A stretch of DNA of 49,428 nt from an uncultured Geobacteraceae bacterium (lineage in GTDB: Bacteria > Desulfobacterota > Desulfuromonadia > Geobacterales > Pseudopelobacteraceae): NCBI GenBank assembly GCA_903876875.1, contig CAIRBT010000091.1, positions 1 to 49,428 on the forward strand, in the 5' to 3' direction. The position numbers and the translations under genes are program-made. This document shows, one piece after another, positions 11,450-37,012 of the stretch; the stretch's first letter is position 1, and each line of letters opens with the position of its first letter. The notes under the pieces are model-generated. The model was not told where the DNA came from. It was given only the letters and a program-made list of their open reading frames with translations, and did not search any database.

Positions 11450-11905
11450 ATGGGTGTGCGAGGAACAAGAACAGTGCCATACGGAGGTTTTTCCCTCCTG
11501 GAATTACTGATATCGCTGGCTATTCTTACCATCAGCTTTCTGGCGATCATTCCCCTTTTGATAGCGTCCATGGGGCTGAATTCCGCTACGGAAATGGCCA
11601 TTGTGGCCCGAAACCTGGCGGCCCAAAAGGTGGAAGAACTGGTGGCGATGCCACAGAGCAGCATAAGCAAACTGCTGGGCACCGGCACCGCCTATGTGGC
11701 ACCAACCGAATACCTCACCCCGGCCGGAAAAATAACCACCTCCAACGACCCCCAGGGGAGGTTCCGGAGAAAGTGGAGCATCATCCCGGTGCCGGTGCGG
11801 GATGCCACAAAGCTCCCGGTTCCCCTGGCACTCTCCGCGCTGGTCGAATATACCTTTAAGGGGGAAACAAAATCACGCTCCTTCACCACCATCTGGAGCT
11901 ACTGA
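11450..11905 (+). CDS. PilV-like minor pseudopilin
   Basis: This 151-residue prepilin has a short basic leader ending in Gly-Gly, then FSLLELLISLAILTISFLA. Prepilin peptidase would cut before Phe, leaving the conserved glutamate at +5 and a hydrophobic helix. The rest is a small globular domain similar to PilV-type minor pilins, which prime pilus assembly together with PilW, PilX and PilY1. It is the first gene after the sigma-54 site, and the PilW-like gene starts 1 nt after its stop codon. Confidence 0.78.
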   Translation: MGVRGTRTVPYGGFSLLELLISLAILTISFLAIIPLLIASMGLNSATEMAIVARNLAAQKVEELVAMPQSSISKLLGTGTAYVAPTEYLTPAGKITTSNDPQGRFRRKWSIIPVPVRDATKLPVPLALSALVEYTFKGETKSRSFTTIWSY

Positions 11906-11906
11906 T

Positions 11907-13004
11907 ATGGGGCGTCCAGGGGAACAGCTCTCCGGTTTCACCCTGGTCGAACTTCTGGTCTCCATGGTTATTTTCTCCATTGTGCTAACCATCTGCTACT
12001 CTACCTATCTTACCATTTCACGTATCGTCACCCGGATTTCCGATAGCAACGCCGTCAGCGACAGGGCGCAACGCTTGATGACCTTCATTGAGGAGGACCT
12101 GCGCGGCGCGGGGTATCTGGTCTCCCCGGACAGTGGTATACCGTACTGTTCCGACCCTGCTGATACCTCATCAGGCACGAAGGTAATAAGCCATTCCCGG
12201 GGGAACCCTTCTGACACCCTCTCCTTCATACATGCTGTTCCGGTCGTGCTGGACGAGTCGTCTCGCAGTTGTATCGATCACCAGAAAGAGTGCCCCCCCT
12301 CGGGAGACCCGACCAGCGGCAGCGCAGCTTCCCGTCAGGACTACTATCTGACGACCCGCTGTGATTCCGGTGCCGGTACCGGTCGGCCAAATTCTATCGC
12401 GGTTGATGCGGTGCATGACTGCTACGACTCCCTGCTGCTGGCTGCCGTCGGTGCCAGTAACAGCAAATCCCTGGTGACATTCCAGACCGCATCCGGCGAT
12501 GGTGCCTGCTATCAGGTAACCGGCATCGACAACGGGATTTTTACCCTCATTCCCGAACTAAAGCAACTGATACCCGATAATTCAACGGTTTTCACCCTGC
12601 GTCAGTATCGCTATGACGTGGTCACCACTCCCGCTGCGGAGGCGCGTACCTTCCGACGTTCCGGCTGGAAATCAGATTGTACCCTTGATCCGGTAGCAAT
12701 GGGCGAACCGACGGGCGACGGGGGAGGGGTCGATGGCCTCAAATTCGAATTCACCTCCTACAATCCGCTCACGGAAAGAATGGAGCTGACTGCGGTGCCC
12801 CCCGCCTCCCTCAAAAACCTCCGCTGCGTTACCGTCTGGCTGCTACTCCGGGCAGAGCGGAAAACGCCCGACTATCTCAATAATAACCGGTACGTGCTCG
12901 GTAACTCGGTGGATCAGACCGTCGTTGGCCCCTTTAATGATTCGTACATTCGTTCCCTTACCTACCGTACGGTGGAGGTGAGAAATTTTAGTTCCGGAAG
13001 TTGA
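11907..13004 (+). CDS. PilW-like minor pseudopilin
   Basis: This is a 365-residue prepilin. The leader MGRPGEQLSG is followed by FTLVELLVSMVIFSIVLT, with Glu at +5 after cleavage, and the long C-terminal part (DRAQRLMTFIEEDLRGAGY) is typical of PilW. The ATG at 11907 has a GGAG site at 11895-11898 and lies 1 nt past the previous stop. The frame is open further upstream, but that part overlaps the PilV-like gene and has no leader. Its last codons contain the ribosome site of the next gene. Confidence 0.8.
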   Translation: MGRPGEQLSGFTLVELLVSMVIFSIVLTICYSTYLTISRIVTRISDSNAVSDRAQRLMTFIEEDLRGAGYLVSPDSGIPYCSDPADTSSGTKVISHSRGNPSDTLSFIHAVPVVLDESSRSCIDHQKECPPSGDPTSGSAASRQDYYLTTRCDSGAGTGRPNSIAVDAVHDCYDSLLLAAVGASNSKSLVTFQTASGDGACYQVTGIDNGIFTLIPELKQLIPDNSTVFTLRQYRYDVVTTPAAEARTFRRSGWKSDCTLDPVAMGEPTGDGGGVDGLKFEFTSYNPLTERMELTAVPPASLKNLRCVTVWLLLRAERKTPDYLNNNRYVLGNSVDQTVVGPFNDSYIRSLTYRTVEVRNFSSGS

Positions 13005-13650
13005 CGTTCCCCGGTGGCTTGGCAACCGCCAGGGCATCGCCCTGATATCTTCGCTGATGCTGACTCTGCTGCTGGCACTGATGGTGGTCGCCCTTACCTA
13101 TCGGGTGATCCCCTTCAGCATCGGCACGCGAGAGGCGATCATTAAAAGCCAGTCCCTGTATGCCGCCGATGCCGGTCTCAGTCAGGCGCGCTACTTCCTG
13201 TACGACCAGGATTGCACCATGACCTCCCTGAACCGGTGGCAATGCGGCAACGGCACCTTTGCCATTACTGAGACTTTTACCGATCTATCCCCTCTGCTGC
13301 AGCGCTCCTTTCCGGCGGTGCTGGGGATCTCGCTCGGGGATAAAACCCTTGCGTACGATACGGGCGCACAAAAAATAACCGGCGGTGCCAATGACAGCTA
13401 CACGTACCATGTCTATGCCAAAACCGCCGGTGCGCCTGACGTTATTAATCTGGTCGCCGTGGCGGAACGACGGGACAGTCCGGTAAAAACCGTTATCGAT
13501 GTGGGAGTGAAATACAATACCCGGTTGGGGGATGATTCTCTCCGGTCTAAAAACCAGGGAGCCGATGGCTGTGGCACCTCGGCAGAAACCCTGGGGGAGA
13601 GCGACACGACGACGCTGACCAATACCATCAGAATCAGTACATCCCCTTAA
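12985..13650 (+). CDS. PilX-like minor pseudopilin with apparent ATT start
   Basis: The conserved N-terminal part typical of PilX (NRQGIALISSL followed by a hydrophobic run and TYRV) lies upstream of the first ATG in frame (13057). Between the in-frame stop at 12979-12981 and that ATG there is no ATG, GTG or TTG. The only start with a ribosome site is ATT at 12985, 6 nt after GGAGG (12974-12978). Beginning there gives about 221 residues and an intact N-terminal segment; beginning at 13057 would cut the membrane helix. PilX-type proteins are non-classical pilins lacking the Glu+5 motif. The gene overlaps the end of the PilW-like gene by 20 bp. The PilX-like family call is fairly safe, the start is inferred. 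Confidence 0.65.
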   Translation: MLVPEVDVPRWLGNRQGIALISSLMLTLLLALMVVALTYRVIPFSIGTREAIIKSQSLYAADAGLSQARYFLYDQDCTMTSLNRWQCGNGTFAITETFTDLSPLLQRSFPAVLGISLGDKTLAYDTGAQKITGGANDSYTYHVYAKTAGAPDVINLVAVAERRDSPVKTVIDVGVKYNTRLGDDSLRSKNQGADGCGTSAETLGESDTTTLTNTIRISTSP

Positions 13651-13662
13651 GGAGGAATCCCC

Positions 13663-16600
13663 ATGGACATCCATCACGGTCGGAGGCGGTTCTCCGCCGT
13701 TCTCGCCGGTTTCCTTGCGCTTATACTGCAGCTGTCCGTCGGGGTGACCACTGCCCAGACAGCAATGACCTCCTTCAATGCCGGCTCCTATATCATCGCC
13801 AGCGATGCCTGCTGGCAACCGAACAACGATCCCGCAACGACTCAAGATCTCCCCGCTTATTGTGATGGCAACAGAAATGACAGTTCTCTCTATCAGCTGT
13901 ACCACCTGCTTTACACGCTGCTTGCTACGGGAGATATGCCTGGAGCCTGTGCCAACGTTGATAAACGTGTGCCGCTACAAAAAGAGCTCTTCGGTTATTG
14001 TAAACAGCTCAGAATCCACTGGCTCATCAATGCCACAAAAAACTCCCCCCAGGGGCTTGACCTACTCCTCACCACGGCCGGAGCGACCGGCATAACGCCG
14101 TTGGTCACCATCTGCAACAGCACCAAAAACGGCAGTATTCCCCCCTTTGACAGCTATGTGACCAGGAGTGACTCCGGGACAGCCACCACCATCGGCTATC
14201 GGGGCGGCCCCTTTGTCATCGACGCCAATGACATTACACCGACAGAAATGGCTGCCGTGGTGGCTCGCTTTCCGGCGGTTAAAATTCATCGGGCCACCAT
14301 ACCTTTTTCCGGAAATGTTACCAGGGTTCTTACCGGTAACCCGCCGAAGATTGCGGTCTTGAGTGAAGGAACCAGTGAGCCGTTTGAAAACTTCCTCCGG
14401 GTGGCCGCTGCTGAAAGTTGGCGGGATAAGAATGTCTTTCAGTATATCACTACCCGTGATGTGCTGGCCGGCTGTCTGGCTGACCCGCTCCCCGCCACCT
14501 GCCGCAGTCGCCGTCCCGACCTTGTCACCCCGTTTGGGCTGCTCTGGAGTTCCCACTGGGATATCGGCGACAGGGGGAGCGACGGCAGTACGCCGACGGC
14601 GGAGGAACAGCAGGCGGTTCTTACCGAAATTCGCAACTTTTTGGGGAGGGGTAATCCGGCACTCTTTGGCTGCGCCGGTATTGGCAGTATGGAAGGGGGG
14701 AGCCAATTCGGTACCAATTTCACCATCGGCGGCGGTGCAATTCCGGCGGGGGGCGTTCTCCTGCCACCCGGTACGGGGGGAGTGGCTGCCCTGCCCCGTG
14801 TCGAAAGCAATGCCGGTTGCTCCGACCGGGGGGGATGCGGGAGCGGCTATCTGGCTGCGGAGCGACCTTCGGCCTGGCTGTCCCAGTGCGGCGGCTGGGA
14901 GTTTGCTCCCGGCTCCGGCACCATCCGGAGTATGCGTCCCGCTCCCCCTACCGGAAACCCCTATACCTCCACCACCCTGGCCGACGACCCGGTGACAACG
15001 GTGGACGACCGGTTTATCGGTTTCGGGGTAAGCCGCCTGCTCCATGACGCCCGGGCACAATCCGGTGACAACTCCCCCCTGGCCGCCGGAGATACCTACC
15101 ACCTGTCAGACTATCTGGTGGGGGGACAGAGTGACGGCTCCCCCACCACGGGGTACCTCTCCTATCTGCCGGGACACAGCTTCATTACCTGTTTGAATGA
15201 GACGACCTCCGGTGTGCCACCGGTACGGACGGTCGATTTCACCTTTGCCGCCCCCCCTGTTCTCCTCACCATAGAAGCGGTTCATGGGGGCTGTACCGGC
15301 GGCATTACCTGCCCCCGTGTCACTTTCAAAAGACAACCGGAACTTTCCGGTGCCGGTTATGCAACCATCGGCTCCACCAGTAGCATGGGCGGGACTGTTC
15401 GTCTCAGTGCGGAGTTTGCCCATTTCGATATGGCCACCAACCGCGTGGCAGGGGTAACGGTTGAGCAGAGCGACCCCACCGGAACGGCTGCCATTCCGAT
15501 CACCGATTTCATTGTGACCGGCGGGACACTTTCCGCCATCACCGACATAACGGCGGGGAGTCCCCCCCGAACGATCTGTAAAGCTGACATGACGGGAGGA
15601 GCCGGTTCTGCGGTTCACTGCCCCCCGGTCGACTATTCCGTGGGACCCTATCAGACCGGTTGCGCCATCGACTGGAGCCACTCCAACAGTTGCGGCAGCA
15701 AATATGCCCTCAACACCCTGGCCGCCCCCCACTTGAGCCTCGGCTCCGCTGAAATCTCCAAAACCCAGCCGATTATCAAGGATAACATCCTCTATCAGGC
15801 CGGTTTTGATTATCCGGGTAACCGTGGCCACCTGAGGATGATCCGGGTGCCACTGCTGCAGACCGACGGCTCATATACTGCATCGACTATCCAGTGGGAC
15901 AGTGCCAACGCCATGCCGGTGGCCGGAACCGGAGGCTTTCCGGTCGCCCCTCTCTCCTCCACCGACACCACATCTCCCCGTCACATCTTTACCAATCTGC
16001 CTGGCGCGACAAACCACCTTGTTTTCGATCCCTCCAGTTTCAAGGCACTTGCGGCTTCGGAGCGGGATGCCCTGCGCAATCAGCTCGGTGCTGCCACCAC
16101 GGAAGCCGCTGCGGTTATTATCAATACGGTGCGGGGGCGCACCGCTGCATCGCTCACCTCCCCCTGCGGTGTCACCGGGTGTGGCGAGGAGGGGAAACGC
16201 CTCTGGGCCATTGAAACATCTACTCCGGCACTGAAAACCCGCTCAAAATTGATTGAGTCCTCCAATGGGGACACTCCACCGGTTGTCGGAAGAGATCGTC
16301 GTGATCGGGTGCTCTTTGCGGGGGGGACGGATGGCATGTTGCACGCATTCCACGGTGGTACCTACGACAGTGTAAGGGATCAGTATCCCGACAACGACAG
16401 CGGGTGGGGTAGCGGCAGGGAACTCTGGGCATATATCCCTGGAACCCTGCTCTCTCGCCTGAAGGAACAGCCCTTTACCACACACGCTGCCAATCAAGCC
16501 GCCTTCCGGCCACAGGTTACGCTTAACGGCTCACCACTGCTGACCATCCAGTCGGTACGGAGTGCAGCGGGACAGACGCTGTCTGCCGACCTTTGGAAAC

Positions 16601-17838
16601 AGCGGGTGCGGCTTGTGGGTACCGGAGCAGATGTGGCGGCTACGGTCGGCACGGTGTTTGCCCTTGATGTCACCGATCAGTACTCCCCCCGTCTGCTCTG
16701 GGAGAATAGTTACCATGACAGCGGCGACGCAAGCGGCTGCGGCGGCAGTCATCGAAATTGCAATATGGGGGAATCTGCGGGGGTCGCCAGCGGTGCGGTA
16801 CTGGTGGGGAAAATCGTCCGGAATTATGTTTTTCTCACCTCCAACTGGACGACCATGAGGAGCGCTGTCACCGGCGCACTCTGCACCGATGTCATGGCGG
16901 CCACTGCGGAGTACCGGTGCGGCTATGGCATCAGTGCCTTTGCCCTGGACAGTGATACGGGCGATGTCATGTGGCAGAGTTCGTACTTCTATCGCGGTTC
17001 GGCCGCCGGGATCAACGCGGTACCGGCCACTCCTGCCCTGATGTCCCGGGATAACAACGGTGTGTATGACTACGTCGTCTTTGGTGACATGCAGGGGAGG
17101 CTCTGGATACTCAACTCCCGGGACGGCAGCAGCCCTTATGGAACGGAACTCCCCGGTACCGGCACTCCAAACCCGGCCGGCCCGTCGGCCTATCAGGTCA
17201 AACGACTTGACAGCAATGGCCTGGACGCAATTCCGGCTGTATTTACCTTTGGGGACGAACCAATCGGTGCCTCGGTGGCCATCTACCGGAACTACATCAT
17301 TCTCGGTACCGGTGGCACAGATTTCGCTTCCAATGCACGGGATTATCGTGTGGAGGTACTCCGCTTCGACCCCCGTACACTCCGCGTCACCAAGGATGAC
17401 AGCAAAACCATTGTCACTGGTGGTTTCAGTGCCGGTGGGGCTATCGTCCATGGAGAAAAAATCTGGGCACAGCCGACCGTTACCAGCGATCAGAAGGTTG
17501 TCATCGCCACGGCCGTCAGCTACTTCACCGTCCAGCCACTCTCCGTCCCGGCAAGTATCGGACGCGTGCTGATTCTCGATCTGACCGTGGGGCGAACCGG
17601 CAGTTATCCCTATAAAAACGTCCAGATGGTTGGTGCCCCTCCGACTTCCGGCGGCACTGCTCCTGCGACGACTAACCCGGCAACTATTTTTTCCGGTGGT
17701 TTTTTCGGGGGGATCGGCATCGACCACCGGCGACTGTACGGGATAACCGGCACGGGGAATGCCATTCAGGCCGGCCCCGGCGGAACCACAAGCGGAACCG
17801 GCAATCCATTCCAGATCATCTGGTGGAGAAAACTATGA
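13663..17838 (+). CDS. PilY1-like pilus-tip adhesin
   Basis: This 1391-residue exported protein has a signal peptide (to about residue 32) and AAGGAGG (13649-13655) before the ATG. The N-terminal two thirds are Cys-, Gly- and Ser-rich and unlike known domains; I see no clear von Willebrand MIDAS motif. From about residue 880 it becomes a PilY1-type beta-propeller: RDRVLFAGGTDGMLHAFHGG, then RELWAYIPGTLL, then VYDYVVFGDMQGRLWILN. The last follows SRDNNG, a reduced version of the calcium loop known in PilY1. PilY1 works with minor pilins at the pilus tip in adhesion, extension and surface sensing. It is flanked by PilX- and FimU-like genes, and its stop overlaps the next ATG (ATGA). The N-terminal part is where specificity would lie. 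Confidence 0.8.
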   Translation: MDIHHGRRRFSAVLAGFLALILQLSVGVTTAQTAMTSFNAGSYIIASDACWQPNNDPATTQDLPAYCDGNRNDSSLYQLYHLLYTLLATGDMPGACANVDKRVPLQKELFGYCKQLRIHWLINATKNSPQGLDLLLTTAGATGITPLVTICNSTKNGSIPPFDSYVTRSDSGTATTIGYRGGPFVIDANDITPTEMAAVVARFPAVKIHRATIPFSGNVTRVLTGNPPKIAVLSEGTSEPFENFLRVAAAESWRDKNVFQYITTRDVLAGCLADPLPATCRSRRPDLVTPFGLLWSSHWDIGDRGSDGSTPTAEEQQAVLTEIRNFLGRGNPALFGCAGIGSMEGGSQFGTNFTIGGGAIPAGGVLLPPGTGGVAALPRVESNAGCSDRGGCGSGYLAAERPSAWLSQCGGWEFAPGSGTIRSMRPAPPTGNPYTSTTLADDPVTTVDDRFIGFGVSRLLHDARAQSGDNSPLAAGDTYHLSDYLVGGQSDGSPTTGYLSYLPGHSFITCLNETTSGVPPVRTVDFTFAAPPVLLTIEAVHGGCTGGITCPRVTFKRQPELSGAGYATIGSTSSMGGTVRLSAEFAHFDMATNRVAGVTVEQSDPTGTAAIPITDFIVTGGTLSAITDITAGSPPRTICKADMTGGAGSAVHCPPVDYSVGPYQTGCAIDWSHSNSCGSKYALNTLAAPHLSLGSAEISKTQPIIKDNILYQAGFDYPGNRGHLRMIRVPLLQTDGSYTASTIQWDSANAMPVAGTGGFPVAPLSSTDTTSPRHIFTNLPGATNHLVFDPSSFKALAASERDALRNQLGAATTEAAAVIINTVRGRTAASLTSPCGVTGCGEEGKRLWAIETSTPALKTRSKLIESSNGDTPPVVGRDRRDRVLFAGGTDGMLHAFHGGTYDSVRDQYPDNDSGWGSGRELWAYIPGTLLSRLKEQPFTTHAANQAAFRPQVTLNGSPLLTIQSVRSAAGQTLSADLWKQRVRLVGTGADVAATVGTVFALDVTDQYSPRLLWENSYHDSGDASGCGGSHRNCNMGESAGVASGAVLVGKIVRNYVFLTSNWTTMRSAVTGALCTDVMAATAEYRCGYGISAFALDSDTGDVMWQSSYFYRGSAAGINAVPATPALMSRDNNGVYDYVVFGDMQGRLWILNSRDGSSPYGTELPGTGTPNPAGPSAYQVKRLDSNGLDAIPAVFTFGDEPIGASVAIYRNYIILGTGGTDFASNARDYRVEVLRFDPRTLRVTKDDSKTIVTGGFSAGGAIVHGEKIWAQPTVTSDQKVVIATAVSYFTVQPLSVPASIGRVLILDLTVGRTGSYPYKNVQMVGAPPTSGGTAPATTNPATIFSGGFFGGIGIDHRRLYGITGTGNAIQAGPGGTTSGTGNPFQIIWWRKL

Positions 17839-18482
17839 ATGGCCGGGCGTTTTCCCTGTTGGAGCTGCTGATGGTCATCTGCATTATCTCCGTGCTTTCT
17901 GGCATCGCCATTCCAGCTTTTATTGCCCAGTTGAACCGTGCCACCGTTGAGGAGAGTGGCCGATGGCTGCAGGAAGCGGTCAAAGCGGCTCAAATTGAGG
18001 CACAGAAGCGAACCTTTGTCGCCATCAGCTCCGCTGCCCCCACGGTTTTTGCCAAACAGGCGGTGTACCTTTCACTGCATCCGGACAGCGGGAGCATCCG
18101 GATAACGGCCTGGCAGGACAGTAACCATGATGCACGTATCACGGACAATGAACTGACTCTGTTACAGGAGGTCTCTCTCAAGGCGGGCACCACCTTCACC
18201 CTGCCGGCAGAGATCAACAAAGTCGCCTGTGGCAATACGGGGAACCGGCCGGGGGGGAGTATTGTCAATTTCAGCACGAGTGGCGGCCCCATCGGCACCA
18301 CACTCGTGCCGCTTGGGACCAGCTATGTGGCCTTTGACGGAGGGGGGGCTATTGACGGTCTGAGGTACAATGCGGTCTACATCAGCGGTAGGGGGGGCGA
18401 CACCTGTGCCGTCACCATAAACCCCCTGGGGCTGACCGCGTTATGCCGGTGGAATAACGGAAAGTGGCTTAAAATACGCTAA
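17835..18482 (+). CDS. FimT/FimU (GspH)-type pseudopilin
   Basis: This is a 215-residue prepilin with a very short leader, MNGRA, then FSLLELLMVICIISVLSGIA, a prepilin helix with Glu at +5. The residue before the cut is Ala rather than the usual Gly, which prepilin peptidases can accept, though less efficiently. The C-terminal region is a GspH/FimT-like domain. The ATG at 17835 overlaps the PilY1 stop (ATGA) and has GGAGA (17825-17829) 5 nt upstream, better than the GTG at 17823. It closes the operon and its stop codon abuts that of the convergent korB-like gene. Confidence 0.75.
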   Translation: MNGRAFSLLELLMVICIISVLSGIAIPAFIAQLNRATVEESGRWLQEAVKAAQIEAQKRTFVAISSAAPTVFAKQAVYLSLHPDSGSIRITAWQDSNHDARITDNELTLLQEVSLKAGTTFTLPAEINKVACGNTGNRPGGSIVNFSTSGGPIGTTLVPLGTSYVAFDGGGAIDGLRYNAVYISGRGGDTCAVTINPLGLTALCRWNNGKWLKIR

Positions 18483-25019: not shown

Positions 25020-25087
25020 TGGTATCATGTTGAAATAGTATTCGGTTTTGATCGCTATTTTTGATAGTATGTGGAAAGGACACGTTT

Positions 25088-26005
25088 ATGAAAACAAAAA
25101 AACCACGAAAACTGATTACCTTTGACTGGGCTATGAAACGTCTGCTGCGGAGTAAAGCCAACTTCGAAATCCTCGAAGGATTCTTAAGTGAACTACTGTG
25201 TGAAGATATATGCATCCTTGAGGTGTTGGAAAGTGAGAGCAACAAGGAACACAAAGATGACAAGTTCAACCGGGTAGATCTCAAGGTTAAAAATGCGGTA
25301 GGTGAGATTGTCGTCATTGAGGTGCAGTACGAGCGTGAATTTGATTATCTGCAGCGTATGCTCTACGGTACTTCACGTGTCATAACAGAACATCAGAAGG
25401 AAAGCGAACCATTTTCAGGGGTGGTAAAAGTCATATCGGTGAACATTCTTTACTTTGACCTTGGGCACGGCAGCGATTATATCTATCACGGAACCACCAG
25501 TTTTACCGGACTGCACGATAAAGATCATCTCCAGTTGAGTAGCAAACAGAAAAAGCTCTATGGCCGTGAGCAGCTCCACCACCTATTCCCGGAATACTAT
25601 CTCATCAGGATTAATAACTTTAATGATAGAGCTGTAACAACTCTGGACGAATGGATTTATTTCCTCAAGAACGAAGAGATCAAAGATGAGTTCAAGGCCA
25701 AAGGATTGCAAAAGGCACGAAAAACGTTTTCTCTGTTAAACCTCCCAGAAAAAGATCGACTGGCGTACGCCCGGTATCAGGACGACTTAAAATATCAAGC
25801 CAGTCTGATAGAGTCCAACTATGGCCTTGGCCGTCTTGAAGGCAGAGAAGAAGGCAGAGAAGAAGGCAGAGAAAAGGGGATCGAGGAAGGTATCGAACGG
25901 GGAAAGATTGAGGTTGCGTATAAACTGATCGCCAAAGGAATGAGTGCAGAAGAAGCAGCGGAGCTTGCCGGAATTGCAGTGAAAATTCTGCGAAGTGGGG
26001 ATTAA
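25088..26005 (+). CDS. Rpn/PD-(D/E)XK nuclease-family transposase-like protein
   Basis: This 305-residue protein is of the Rpn (PF12784, PD-(D/E)XK transposase-like) type. The nuclease core includes a VDLKV aspartate and IEVQ (E-x-Q/K) about 12 residues on. YLIRINNF and DEWIYFLKN are typical of the family. The C-terminus contains a Gly/Glu/Arg repeat (12-bp direct repeats at 25838-25873). Rpn proteins are DNA nucleases that can promote recombination; several have been linked to phage defence, with small in-frame antitoxins made from the 3' end of the gene. The ATG at 25088 follows AAAGGA. The gene is single with no IS end visible. Confidence 0.75.
   Translation: MKTKKPRKLITFDWAMKRLLRSKANFEILEGFLSELLCEDICILEVLESESNKEHKDDKFNRVDLKVKNAVGEIVVIEVQYEREFDYLQRMLYGTSRVITEHQKESEPFSGVVKVISVNILYFDLGHGSDYIYHGTTSFTGLHDKDHLQLSSKQKKLYGREQLHHLFPEYYLIRINNFNDRAVTTLDEWIYFLKNEEIKDEFKAKGLQKARKTFSLLNLPEKDRLAYARYQDDLKYQASLIESNYGLGRLEGREEGREEGREKGIEEGIERGKIEVAYKLIAKGMSAEEAAELAGIAVKILRSGD
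25838..25873 (+). repeat. Three perfect 12-bp direct repeats inside the Rpn gene
   Basis: The 12-bp unit GAAGGCAGAGAA occurs three times in tandem, followed by degraded copies. Each unit encodes Glu-Gly-Arg-Glu in frame, so slippage would change length without a frameshift. The repeat is in the hydrophilic C-terminal linker. Confidence 0.85.
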
Positions 26006-34491: not shown

Positions 34492-34977
34492 TCAGAGCTT
34501 CACCACAGTTTCATCGGACACAAGGTTGGTGAGCAGCTGCCCAATGGAGATGCCGGAAACGGGGTGCAGCAGTTCCGAGTCGATCTCGGCGAGTGGCTGC
34601 AACACAAAACGCCGCTCCGTCATGCGGGGATGGGGAATAACCAGGTCAGCTTCGGCGATAATCCGGTCGCCAAAAAGCAACAGATCCAGATCCAGAGAGC
34701 GGGGTCCGTTGGGGATTAATCGTTCGCGGCCAAACGTCAGTTCCTCTATGCCAAGCAGAGCCAGCAACAGCTGTCGCGGTTCATGCCGGGTGGAGAGGCG
34801 GAGTACGGCATTAAAAAAAGTGTCCGGTGTCGCTGTGGCGACGGGCGATGTTTCGTAGAACGATGACAGAGCCGTTACCCGGCATCCCGTAAGTTTGCCG
34901 ACTTCAGCGACTCCCCGAAGCAGGTTGAGCTCACGATCACCGACATTTGAGCCGAGTGCTATGTAGGCATCAGTCAT
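34492..34977 (-). CDS. folK: 2-amino-4-hydroxy-6-hydroxymethyldihydropteridine pyrophosphokinase
   Basis: This 161-residue protein begins MTDAYIALGSNVGDRE and has SSFYETSPV, the metal/ATP site GPRSLDLDLLLFGD and the conserved IPHPRMTERRFVLQPL. FolK transfers pyrophosphate from ATP to hydroxymethyldihydropterin in folate synthesis. I use the ATG at 34977, where the family sequence starts; the frame is open to 35007, which would run into a hairpin. No clear ribosome site was seen. Confidence 0.9.
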   Translation of the reverse strand: MTDAYIALGSNVGDRELNLLRGVAEVGKLTGCRVTALSSFYETSPVATATPDTFFNAVLRLSTRHEPRQLLLALLGIEELTFGRERLIPNGPRSLDLDLLLFGDRIIAEADLVIPHPRMTERRFVLQPLAEIDSELLHPVSGISIGQLLTNLVSDETVVKL

Positions 34978-35001
34978 CACCGGCCGATTAAAGCATACTG
35001 A

Positions 35002-35023
35002 TTCCACGGCGTCAACCGTGGAA
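35002..35023 (-). terminator. Short hairpin after the DUF697 gene
   Basis: An 8-bp stem (35002-35009 with 35016-35023) and 6-nt loop lies just past the DUF697 gene. It has no T run, so the termination role is tentative. Confidence 0.35.
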
Positions 35024-35030
35024 TAGTTGG

Positions 35031-35876
35031 TCAGGGTTTTTCCGGTGGTTTTACTTTTCCTGACCGGTACTGCTCTTCAAAGTAACCGCGCACCTTGTTC
35101 GGATCAAAATCAAGGAATGTTCCGCCGGAAGCAAAATGCTGGATAAAGACCCGCCCCACCGCATAGGACAGTGCCCCGTTCACCGCCGGCATGGCAGCAA
35201 TTGAGAACGCTCCGATAAACGGAATGAGTTTTGAGCTGCTTGCCGCCACATAAGCACTATTGATGCCACTTGCCAAAATGGCGATGGCTGATTTTGAACG
35301 TTGGGAATCAAACGGGATTCCATAGAGTTCACAAAGTTTTTTCAACATGAGCAGCTGCATGGCCATGAACCCTGCCATATCGACAAAGGGGAGCGGAATC
35401 AATCCGGTGGCGGCTGACAGGGCTGAATAGGTGTGAACGGTGGACATGGCACTGCGGAATGTCTCATCGACCTCCTCTGACACCGGTTCCGTATCGGTTG
35501 TCGTGGGAGCAGCCGGAGGGGGTGTTTCCGAACTTACTGGTATTTCCAGAGTTACAGGCTCTGGCTCTCGTACTACTGGTTTTGGCTCTGGCACCGGCTC
35601 TGGTTCTGGCTCTGGTGCCGGTTCGGTCACCGGTTCTTGCTCTTGTACCGGTTCCGGTTCGGTGATGGTTACTGGAGGAAGGGGTCGTTCGTGCGCCTCC
35701 GGCACCACTGCAGCAACAGCTGTCTCCTCGATGACCGGCTCATCCACTGCCGCTACCGTCTGGATTACTGACGTTACCTCCTGTGGCACCGGCATTTCCG
35801 CCACCTCTTCAGGGGACATCTCATAAATCCGTTTTCTCGTCCGGGTTATTTTTACCTTTTCGACCGGTTTGGTCAT
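35031..35876 (-). CDS. DUF697 membrane protein with long Pro/Glu-rich N-terminal region
   Basis: This is a 281-residue protein. Residues 1-145 are unstructured and rich in Pro/Glu/Thr/Val (PEPEPEPVPEPKP stretch), ending in an acidic segment. The C-terminal half is a DUF697-like membrane domain: TYSALSAATGLIPLPFVDM, MLKKLCELYGIPF, and two hydrophobic helices around SSKLIPFIGAFSIAAMPAV. DUF697 is often found with GTPases or ATPases. The ATG at 35876 has AGGGAG 7 nt upstream and lies 20 bp after the ParA-like gene, so the two are likely co-expressed. Its job with the ATPase is unknown. Confidence 0.65.
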   Translation of the reverse strand: MTKPVEKVKITRTRKRIYEMSPEEVAEMPVPQEVTSVIQTVAAVDEPVIEETAVAAVVPEAHERPLPPVTITEPEPVQEQEPVTEPAPEPEPEPVPEPKPVVREPEPVTLEIPVSSETPPPAAPTTTDTEPVSEEVDETFRSAMSTVHTYSALSAATGLIPLPFVDMAGFMAMQLLMLKKLCELYGIPFDSQRSKSAIAILASGINSAYVAASSSKLIPFIGAFSIAAMPAVNGALSYAVGRVFIQHFASGGTFLDFDPNKVRGYFEEQYRSGKVKPPEKP

Positions 35877-35896
35877 AGCAACTCCCTGCTCACTGT

Positions 35897-36862
35897 TCAC
35901 GGTGTATCACCTGCCGATTGGGGAGTAATCCCCAGTAATGCCGACACATGGCGGTCGTAATCATCTCTGGCACTGTTACGGGCATAGCGGGAAAATACCG
36001 TTTCCCCGGCAGCCAACACCTTGGAAAATTCACTACTGGTGCGGATCACCGTCAGAGGGAGTTTCGGGTGCCGTTCCTTGATTCTACTCAGGGCGTGATG
36101 GGACACGGTCTCCCGCTGGTCATAGCGGGTATAGATTATGCGTACGGCCGGATGGGGCAGCCCGAAGGTATCGCAGATAGAGGTTATTTCGTCCAAGGTC
36201 AGATCCAGCCCTTTCAGTGAAAAGGCATCGCTCCCCACGGGGACCACGATGGTGTGAGCGGCACAGATGGCAGAAATAACGGCAATCCCCAGGGAGGGGG
36301 GGCAGTCAACGATCACGGTGTCGTACCCCTGGAGTCGCAGCTGATCACAGACCCCCTTAACCGCTTTTTTCTGTGAGCCCGGATTGAGCAGGCTGGCATC
36401 CAGCAGGGCATTTTCAAGGGAGGAGGGGAGAATAGTCAGGTGACTGCTCAGGGGGACCAGCGCGTCGGCCAAAAGCTCTTCCGGACGTTGCCAGATATCG
36501 TAGAAAATAGGGTCATCTTCCTCGGGAACCGCACCCAGAGCCAGACTGGAAGAACCCTGGGGATCAAGGTCAAGCACACAGGTTTTAAACCCGTACTGGG
36601 CGGCGCGGGTGGCGGTGGTGATGGTGCTGGTGGTTTTGCCGATGCCCCCCCGCATGGTGGTATGCACGATGACCCGGAAATGGTAGGAAACGTCCCTCTC
36701 CATAAGAAAACGTCTGACCGCCGTGGGGGTAATGCCATTTGTGGCAGCATTAAGACGTACCAACTCATCCGGCTGAAATTGTTGTTCCAGCTCTCCGATT
36801 GTTGTGCCGTATTTCGCGGCCAGCTCGCGGGTTGTCAACAGCGAATAGGGTTCAGTGGTCAT
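35897..36862 (-). CDS. ParA/MinD-type ATPase with N-terminal helix-turn-helix-like region and Arg in the signature-Lys position
   Basis: This 321-residue protein has an N-terminal part (1-60) with a possible helix-turn-helix (LTTRELAAKYGTTIGELEQQ), as in plasmid-type ParA. The deviant Walker A motif reads RGGIGKTT (residues 71-78). The first lysine of KGGxGKT, which contacts ATP across the dimer interface, is arginine here. Walker A' (CVLDLDPQGSSS) and Walker B (TVIVDCPPSLG) are intact, as is the following LDLTLDE. No ParB gene or parS-like cluster is next to it. It is followed by a DUF697 membrane protein. The ATG at 36862 has GAGGA upstream. A positioning or regulatory role rather than chromosome partition is my inference. 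Confidence 0.75.
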   Translation of the reverse strand: MTTEPYSLLTTRELAAKYGTTIGELEQQFQPDELVRLNAATNGITPTAVRRFLMERDVSYHFRVIVHTTMRGGIGKTTSTITTATRAAQYGFKTCVLDLDPQGSSSLALGAVPEEDDPIFYDIWQRPEELLADALVPLSSHLTILPSSLENALLDASLLNPGSQKKAVKGVCDQLRLQGYDTVIVDCPPSLGIAVISAICAAHTIVVPVGSDAFSLKGLDLTLDEITSICDTFGLPHPAVRIIYTRYDQRETVSHHALSRIKERHPKLPLTVIRTSSEFSKVLAAGETVFSRYARNSARDDYDRHVSALLGITPQSAGDTP

Positions 36863-36887
36863 AGCGTAATTCCTCATTATACTGGTC

Positions 36888-36917
36888 ACAGTACCACCCG
36901 TATTGCGGCACCGTCAA
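36888..36917 (-). promoter_or_regulatory. Possible promoter of the ParA-like/DUF697 pair
   Basis: On the minus strand TTGACG (36917-36912) and TACTGT (36893-36888) are 18 nt apart. The -35 is good, the -10 weak. A start would lie about 20 nt before the ParA-like ATG. Confidence 0.3.
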
Positions 36918-36972: not shown

Positions 36973-37012
36973 TCCCCCCTCGCCCCCCTTTGCAAAGGGG
37001 GGCGAGGGGGAT
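36973..37012. repeat. Long near-perfect palindrome, REP-like
   Basis: Two 18-base arms (36975-36992 and 36993-37010) meet with no spacer, with one extra C at the left edge. Each arm is C- or G-rich with a TTTG/CAAA core. It lies between the ends of the coiled-coil operon and the ParA promoter, so it may terminate the upstream operon or be a copy of an extragenic palindromic repeat. Confidence 0.65.

Follow-up and report, generated by a model that had tools for sequence, protein, structure and literature searches.

A ParA-type ATPase with arginine at its signature position and a DUF697 protein with a basic N-terminal tag: a candidate two-gene positioning module

The window analyzed here (the whole stretch of 49,428 nucleotides from an uncultured Geobacteraceae bacterium, contig CAIRBT010000091.1) carries two neighbouring genes on its reverse strand. 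The upstream gene, at 35897..36862, encodes a ParA-type ATPase of 321 amino acids and was delimited from the ORF list, the Pfam AAA_31 domain, an alignment of orthologues and a structure model. Its open reading frame spans 35897-36889; an in-frame GTG at 36889 would extend the protein to 330 amino acids, while the ATG at 36862 is the start conserved among orthologues. The second gene, at 35031..35876 (same strand), encodes a DUF697 protein of 281 amino acids if translation begins at the likely ATG at 35876, as judged from PF05128, the alignment, the start codons and the junction of the two genes. An alternative GTG at 35900 overlaps the parA stop and would make 289 amino acids. The first downstream host gene is folK (34492..35007, reverse strand; Pfam HPPK), which we compared with its neighbours in 30 folK loci of the same genus. 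The 1.5 kb flanks of folK contain a Rossmann-type gene with an AGCGYIG motif in at least 24 of these 30 loci. In two genomes, G000 and G013, it is the ParA-DUF697 pair that stands upstream of folK instead, and other carriers have the pair elsewhere. We leave folK out of the module because the gene upstream of it is a different one in most of the genus. The pair itself occupies different sites in related genomes and hence appears to have been relocated as a unit. Upstream of parA, at 36975-37010, lies a perfect GC-rich inverted repeat of 18 bp, perhaps a dispersed repeat; it could not be made out in the aligned upstream regions of the six other copies from the genus.

The ATPase scores 101.8 bits against AAA_31 (cut-off 27, E 5.5e-29), which places its domain in the ParA/MinD family. 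Its deviant Walker A motif, RGGIGKTT (residues 71-78 from the ATG; 36629..36652, reverse strand), was noticed in the preliminary description of this DNA, and retranslation from ATG 36862 gives the same reading: the signature lysine of ParA/MinD ATPases, the first K of KGGxxK[ST], is replaced by R71. The second lysine and Walker B had been described as intact, and so they are. K76, the Walker A' aspartate (LDLDPQ) and Walker B (VDCPPS) are all in place, and K76, D98, D100 and D186 are invariant in the 14 aligned orthologues (14/14). The structure model (pLDDT 82, pTM 0.87) has Soj and McdA as its nearest folds in Foldseek (Soj 3.5e-16). Longer and weaker alignments of about 360 columns extend to the HTH-bearing plasmid ParA 3ez2 and to Vibrio ParA2. 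The N-terminus had been called a plasmid-type HTH-like region. In the model, residues 9-55 or thereabouts do form a winged-HTH-like unit (helix-helix-strand-strand-helix); against this, residues 1-66 alone have no Pfam match up to E 10. A role as a defence system was rejected: in PADLOC, ParA has a single weak match of 18.9 bits and DUF697 has no match.

The partner scores 39.9 bits against PF05128 (cut-off 27.7) and so belongs to the DUF697 family. It had been described as a membrane protein with a long Pro/Glu tail, and the second half of this description has to be revised, as the Pro/Glu stretch is a linker. In the alignment, partners of this kind have a basic stretch, a linker of variable length, which in the window is Pro/Glu-rich, and a C-terminal DUF697 domain ending in GGTFLDF. 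The basic N-terminal tag, KVKITRTRKRIYE (35820..35858, reverse strand), was recognized from the translation and from tag counts across genomes; it includes KITRTRKRIYE, and most rows of the alignment fit the consensus K-[IV]-x-R-x-R-[KR]-R-x-Y-[ED]. We propose that it is the peptide that contacts ParA. The linker (35496..35780, reverse strand) is rich in Pro, Glu, Val and Thr, with 23 Pro and 19 Glu among its 95 residues (41-135 of the 289-residue ORF); it was drawn from composition, alignment and low model confidence (block means pLDDT 44-68). As for the membrane, the strongest hydrophobic segment has a 19-residue mean of 1.58, which is borderline for a membrane helix, and 44 of 57 DUF697 open frames reach 1.6. 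Judging by hydropathy, we regard membrane association of the window protein as likely. The structure model of the protein is poor (pTM 0.50), with low confidence at the N-terminus. A fold search with this poor model gave no match (best E 0.72), and a search by sequence up to E 1 gave no solved structure for the subfamily.

The ATPase is rare and patchy in its distribution. It was found in 7 of the 98 genomes of the relatives search (its own included), all seven in one genus (7/39), in one of 395 genomes of the phylum, namely the window's own, and in three of 42 genomes of the order of a Thiotrichales match. When genome contigs were scanned, 13 orthologous ParA loci came to light at 44-90% identity, six of them from genomes of the same genus; general ParA proteins at 27-34% identity (L024-L033, 10 of 23 loci) were left out of the orthologue set. 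The six other carriers in the genus have database entries under the names uncultured Geobacteraceae, Desulfuromonadales or Desulfuromonadaceae. Outside the genus, the orthologues come from records named Scalindua, Desulfobacteraceae, Desulfobacterales, Thiotrichales, Thiomargarita, a proteobacterium and a bin labelled Bacteroidales. As every one of the 13 named records is a metagenome bin, single taxonomic assignments may be wrong. Together with the window and G492 these loci make up a set of 15 genomes, and a search for ParA over 43 genomes returned exactly these expected 15. A prophage or viral origin was considered and rejected, as none of the best 80 viral-contig loci listed is above 30% identity.

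The pairing with DUF697 recurs well beyond the window. A DUF697 gene adjoins parA in 14 of the 15 loci (the exception is G486), and within the genus ParA and DUF697 occur in the same 7 of 39 genomes. The association is with one kind of DUF697 protein. Of the 42 DUF697 proteins in ParA genomes 15 are tagged; every one of the 15 genomes has a tagged protein, and each of the 14 genomes searched whole has exactly one (G492 was read for DUF697 within 20 kb around parA). The tagged copy adjoins parA in 12 genomes and lies 1.4 kb away in G490, whereas in G486 and G489 it is found on a different contig. The DUF697 gene directly beside parA is untagged in G489 and G490. The tag pattern was written after the ParA-side proteins had been viewed, and the ParA-free set was read afterwards. 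None of the 32 DUF697 proteins from 28 ParA-free genomes matches it; these genomes were picked by the DUF697 subfamily at E 1e-20, and weaker copies in them fall outside the count. The three plasmid-borne DUF697 proteins examined do not match it either. Since the pattern matches 30 of the 1322 called ORFs in the examined loci, tagged DUF697 included, it rarely matches by chance. A tree of the DUF697 proteins (quick method) puts the tagged ones in one group (SH-aLRT 84), within which four paralogues from the genus nest with degenerate tags (TRKKMF twice, TRKRLYAM and TRKRLRYEM). From this the tag seems to have had a single origin and to have been inherited together with ParA. If it is of one origin, the genome counts are not independent tests; they show shared fate, not independent gains.

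The arginine itself is not a variant of one genome. Of the 15 orthologues, 11 have Arg at the signature position and 4 have Lys. Arginine is carried by all seven members of the genus and by G484, G489, G490 and G492, lysine by G485-G488, and about three changes are needed to account for this distribution on the tree. The three other ParA-like matches of the window genome all have lysine. So do all 80 of the ParA relatives from the best 80 viral-contig loci listed (80/80 by a quick motif reading), from which arginine appears uncommon; this set was chosen by pattern among the matches listed and is not a survey. We nevertheless had to abandon the idea that arginine marks the system out, because each of the four orthologues with lysine has a tagged DUF697 protein as well. 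Moreover, a published table includes family members without the signature lysine, BcsQ with RGGVGTT and McdA with SGGQGKT (passages of PMC9178275), and the McdA of Synechococcus elongatus, which is without it, shows unusually high ATPase activity (a passage of PMC6328274). As BcsQ and McdA also fall outside the signature-lysine definition, we describe the window ParA as a motif variant. Judged on the alignment, the arginine is real and recurrent, yet it is not what defines the system. R71 probably still touches the nucleotide across the dimer, altering the rate rather than abolishing function. That Lys and Arg alternate among orthologues which share one kind of partner amounts to a natural experiment on the role of the signature lysine.

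Is the pair a partition system? The preliminary description saw neither ParB nor parS, and the tests made here agree. No ParB domain was found among the 30 window ORFs scanned with Pfam, a scan that left aside seven kinase/regulator-like ORFs, one pilin-like ORF and small or overlapping ORFs. The parS search, made with a consensus of the chromosomal type only, gave one match in the window with 3 mismatches, where 2.08 such matches are expected by chance. Both components that would define a ParABS system, a partner with a ParB domain and a parS site above chance level, are thus missing from the ORFs and the sequence searched, and by these tests the ParA-DUF697 pair is not a ParABS system. Since the arginine recurs, parA has a DUF697 neighbour in 14 of 15 loci and the searches above found neither ParB nor parS, membrane-linked positioning, which had been suggested at the outset, is a better reading than DNA partition.

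An ATPase with an HTH-like N-terminus and a tagged DUF697 protein thus occur together in 15 of 15 genomes, as neighbours in 12 and at different sites in related genomes. We suggest that they are a cognate ATPase-adaptor pair forming a two-gene positioning module of the ParA/MinD type, with the tagged DUF697 protein as a new class of adaptor. We would put the probability of this reading at roughly 0.55. ATP-bound ParA dimers would bind nucleoid DNA, and the DUF697 domain would sit in or on the membrane, where it may join further DUF697 proteins or the complexes they form. Through its flexible linker the basic tag could then reach the ParA dimer and stimulate ATP hydrolysis, as the N-terminus of ParB, MinE or PomX does. 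Repeated binding and release of ParA would spread or place whatever cargo is bound to DUF697. In the ParB, MinE, ParG and PomX systems the ATPase is activated by basic N-terminal peptides, and N-termini of a similar kind are present in McdB and TlpT (text passages of PMC7993993 and PMC10241942). The DUF697 partner has a peptide of this basic and apparently unstructured kind, tagged copies being present in 15 of 15 genomes and the N-terminus being of low confidence in the model. Many ParA/MinD ATPases are called 'orphans' because their partners are too diverse to recognize (a passage of PMC10241942). Here, each genome has a single likely partner that the sequence itself gives away, and the domain family of this partner hints at a cargo. 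If right, this would open a way to learn how bacteria could bring megasynthase-exporter machines to their place at the membrane, and DUF697, a domain of unknown function, would gain a testable role.

The closest working analogues of the pair are McdAB and PomXYZ. McdA is a close fold match of the window ParA, after Soj. Like the window ParA it has no signature lysine (Ser in S. elongatus McdA, according to passages of PMC6328274), its system likewise does without ParB, and its partner McdB has a basic N-terminal stretch (a passage of PMC7993993). The difference is that here the partner is a DUF697 protein, and the ATPase has an N-terminal HTH and Arg, not Ser. PomX, as described in passages of PMC7993993, also has a basic N-terminal peptide, an Ala/Pro-rich and likely unstructured stretch and a separate scaffold domain; in our case the scaffold is the DUF697 domain, not a coiled coil.

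In combining an RGG P-loop with a role in membrane secretion, BcsQ is the closest known protein. It is ParA-like with arginine at the signature position (passages of PMC9178275) and belongs to a membrane secretion system (passages of PMC7439463); the BcsQ chains matched, of about 240 residues, are shorter than the window ParA. One could therefore imagine that the ATPase aids the folding, assembly or activation of DUF697 complexes, as a regulator of membrane assembly or secretion, with no moving or spacing involved. Exporter genes near DUF697 in 15 of 29 ParA-free regions would suit such a role. Several features make it unlikely, however. The Walker lysine kept in the window ParA is missing in BcsQ (RGGVGTT in the same passages of PMC9178275), and the ATPase scores 41.2 against the BcsQ model TIGR03371, where the cut-off is 157.85 bits. 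The closest folds of the window ParA are Soj and McdA, and the tag resembles an ATPase-activating peptide.

A regulatory switch, in which the HTH-bearing ParA would act on an operator and so control neighbouring genes, with DUF697 either retaining it at the membrane or letting it go, strikes us as improbable. The winged-HTH-like N-terminus of the model would fit, since large ParAs with an HTH can repress their own expression (a passage of PMC9178275), and kinase/regulator-like genes lie near 7 of the 15 tagged loci. On the other hand, a conserved operator upstream of parA was looked for and rejected, because the upstream regions of the seven copies from the genus share little beyond the ribosome-binding-site region. 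The pair also stands in different places with different neighbours, so that no constant target gene is seen. That the pair is what is left of a mobile element's partition system, with DUF697 in the unusual part of centromere-binding partner, is very improbable. Its patchy spread and different sites do look mobile and, like plasmid ParA (3ez2)/RepA and Vibrio ParA2, from which its DUF697 partner sets it apart, the window ParA has an HTH before the ATPase domain and partial profile matches. But its scores against the plasmid models are far below cut-off (NF041546 76.4 of 180 bits, TIGR03453 70 of 348), ParB and parS were not found in the searches above, and there is no orthologue among the best 80 viral-contig loci listed.

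If the pair is a positioning module, what might be positioned? The neighbourhoods of DUF697 genes offer some suggestions, a link that, like the tag, was absent from the preliminary description. In 29 DUF697 regions of the 28 ParA-free genomes, NRPS/PKS genes occur in 18, SPFH genes in 17 and exporter genes in 15, as against 0 of 28 for each in control regions of the same genomes (p 1e-7 for NRPS/PKS and 4e-7 for SPFH, relatedness ignored). The control regions were the start of contig C1 (mean 14.8 kb versus 15.8 kb for the 29 test regions). Neighbouring genes were annotated by BLAST against a small home-made reference set and by motifs, not by curated models, and 20 selected genes were checked with Pfam. 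On plasmids of Skermanella, Azospirillum and a Rhodobacteraceae strain (3 of 18 plasmid matches), DUF697 occurs with ABC transporter and prohibitin genes. Near these genes there is an annotated NRPS in Skermanella and Azospirillum and a large gene of the phosphopantetheinyl-transferase superfamily in the Rhodobacteraceae strain. A recurring arrangement was also seen at L160, L192 and L272-L300, mostly from ParA-free genomes, where DUF697, SPFH/prohibitin and ABC exporter genes, often with a gene for a periplasmic binding protein, lie near NRPS/PKS genes.

The association is weaker in genomes that carry ParA. NRPS genes surround the tagged locus in 3 of 15 (G011, G484 and G487), and the other 12 have no NRPS/PKS in the stretch examined. 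Of the 18 untagged DUF697 regions in these genomes, four have NRPS/PKS genes and four have SPFH genes. In G487 the pair is on one 85-kb contig together with SPFH and exporter genes, several NRPS/PKS genes and two untagged DUF697 genes. Within the genus, an NRPS was found in 3 of 7 ParA carriers versus 1 of 32 others, which is a weak link (p 0.014, relatedness not corrected). Since 12 of the 15 tagged loci are without NRPS/PKS and only 4 of 18 untagged regions have one, cargo stays a guess from gene neighbourhoods.

With this in mind a speculative scheme can be drawn. DUF697 proteins might scaffold NRPS/PKS megasynthases (assembly lines of the antibiotic type), SPFH proteins and exporters at the membrane; a tagged DUF697 protein and its dedicated ParA might space or partition these factories along the nucleoid, and the module might have been re-used for a MotA/ExbB-OmpA energy-transducing complex in a Desulfuromonadales lineage. 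We offer the scheme as a whole tentatively and think it more probably wrong than right; that megasynthase factories are the main cargo of the family is, taken separately, just as doubtful. For cereulide, an NRPS is reported to be tethered to the membrane by its ABC transporter (PMC7527721). A published 95-kb NRPS/PKS cluster lies beside a cyclic-peptide exporter and a prohibitin (passages of PMC12016528) and so resembles the set around DUF697 here; DUF697 does not occur in that paper, and its passages on the cluster name no ParA. In the open-access literature searched, no paper contains both DUF697 and the term 'nonribosomal peptide', and nothing was found there on the ParA-DUF697 pairing; where papers that name both ParA and DUF697 were examined, DUF697 is mentioned incidentally.

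In several genomes, then, NRPS/PKS-SPFH-exporter machines could be the cargo, and a MotA/ExbB-OmpA complex could take their place in the window organism. An NRPS is not supported as cargo there: the search of the window genome for Condensation domains, the one NRPS domain sought, gave none at E 1e-20. Its second DUF697 gene lies divergently beside MotA/ExbB-like and OmpA-like genes, and the OmpA-like protein resembles ZorB (5.9e-16). Within the genus, the MotA/ExbB-like gene was found in five of 39 genomes, each of them one of the seven ParA carriers (p 4e-5, relatedness ignored), and in the four genomes with a DUF697 gene beside it that DUF697 protein groups inside the tagged clade. From these neighbourhoods, a MotA/ExbB-OmpA complex is our best candidate for the cargo in the window organism. 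At the loci concerned (L148, i.e. G000:C8, L165-L167 and L185), the MotA/ExbB-like proteins have 550-575 amino acids and the OmpA/ZorB-like proteins 242-246, and the genes are divergent from the DUF697 paralogue in 4 of 5 genomes.

A few further observations can be mentioned. At L153 (2664-3500), what appears to be a response-regulator receiver domain is fused to a DUF697 domain, the receiver part being recognized by look only. Upstream of the pair in G023, and partly in G007, a same-strand series (L187, 11589-19256) encodes a 1450-residue response-regulator protein, a 792-residue protein with no Pfam match and a second ParA-like protein. In the window itself, a run of pilin-like genes at 11450-18482, with one Pfam N-methylation match (11802-13004), surrounds the gene of a 1391-residue protein with no Pfam match, and a transposase of the PD-(D/E)XK nuclease family lies at 25061-26005 between regulator-like genes.
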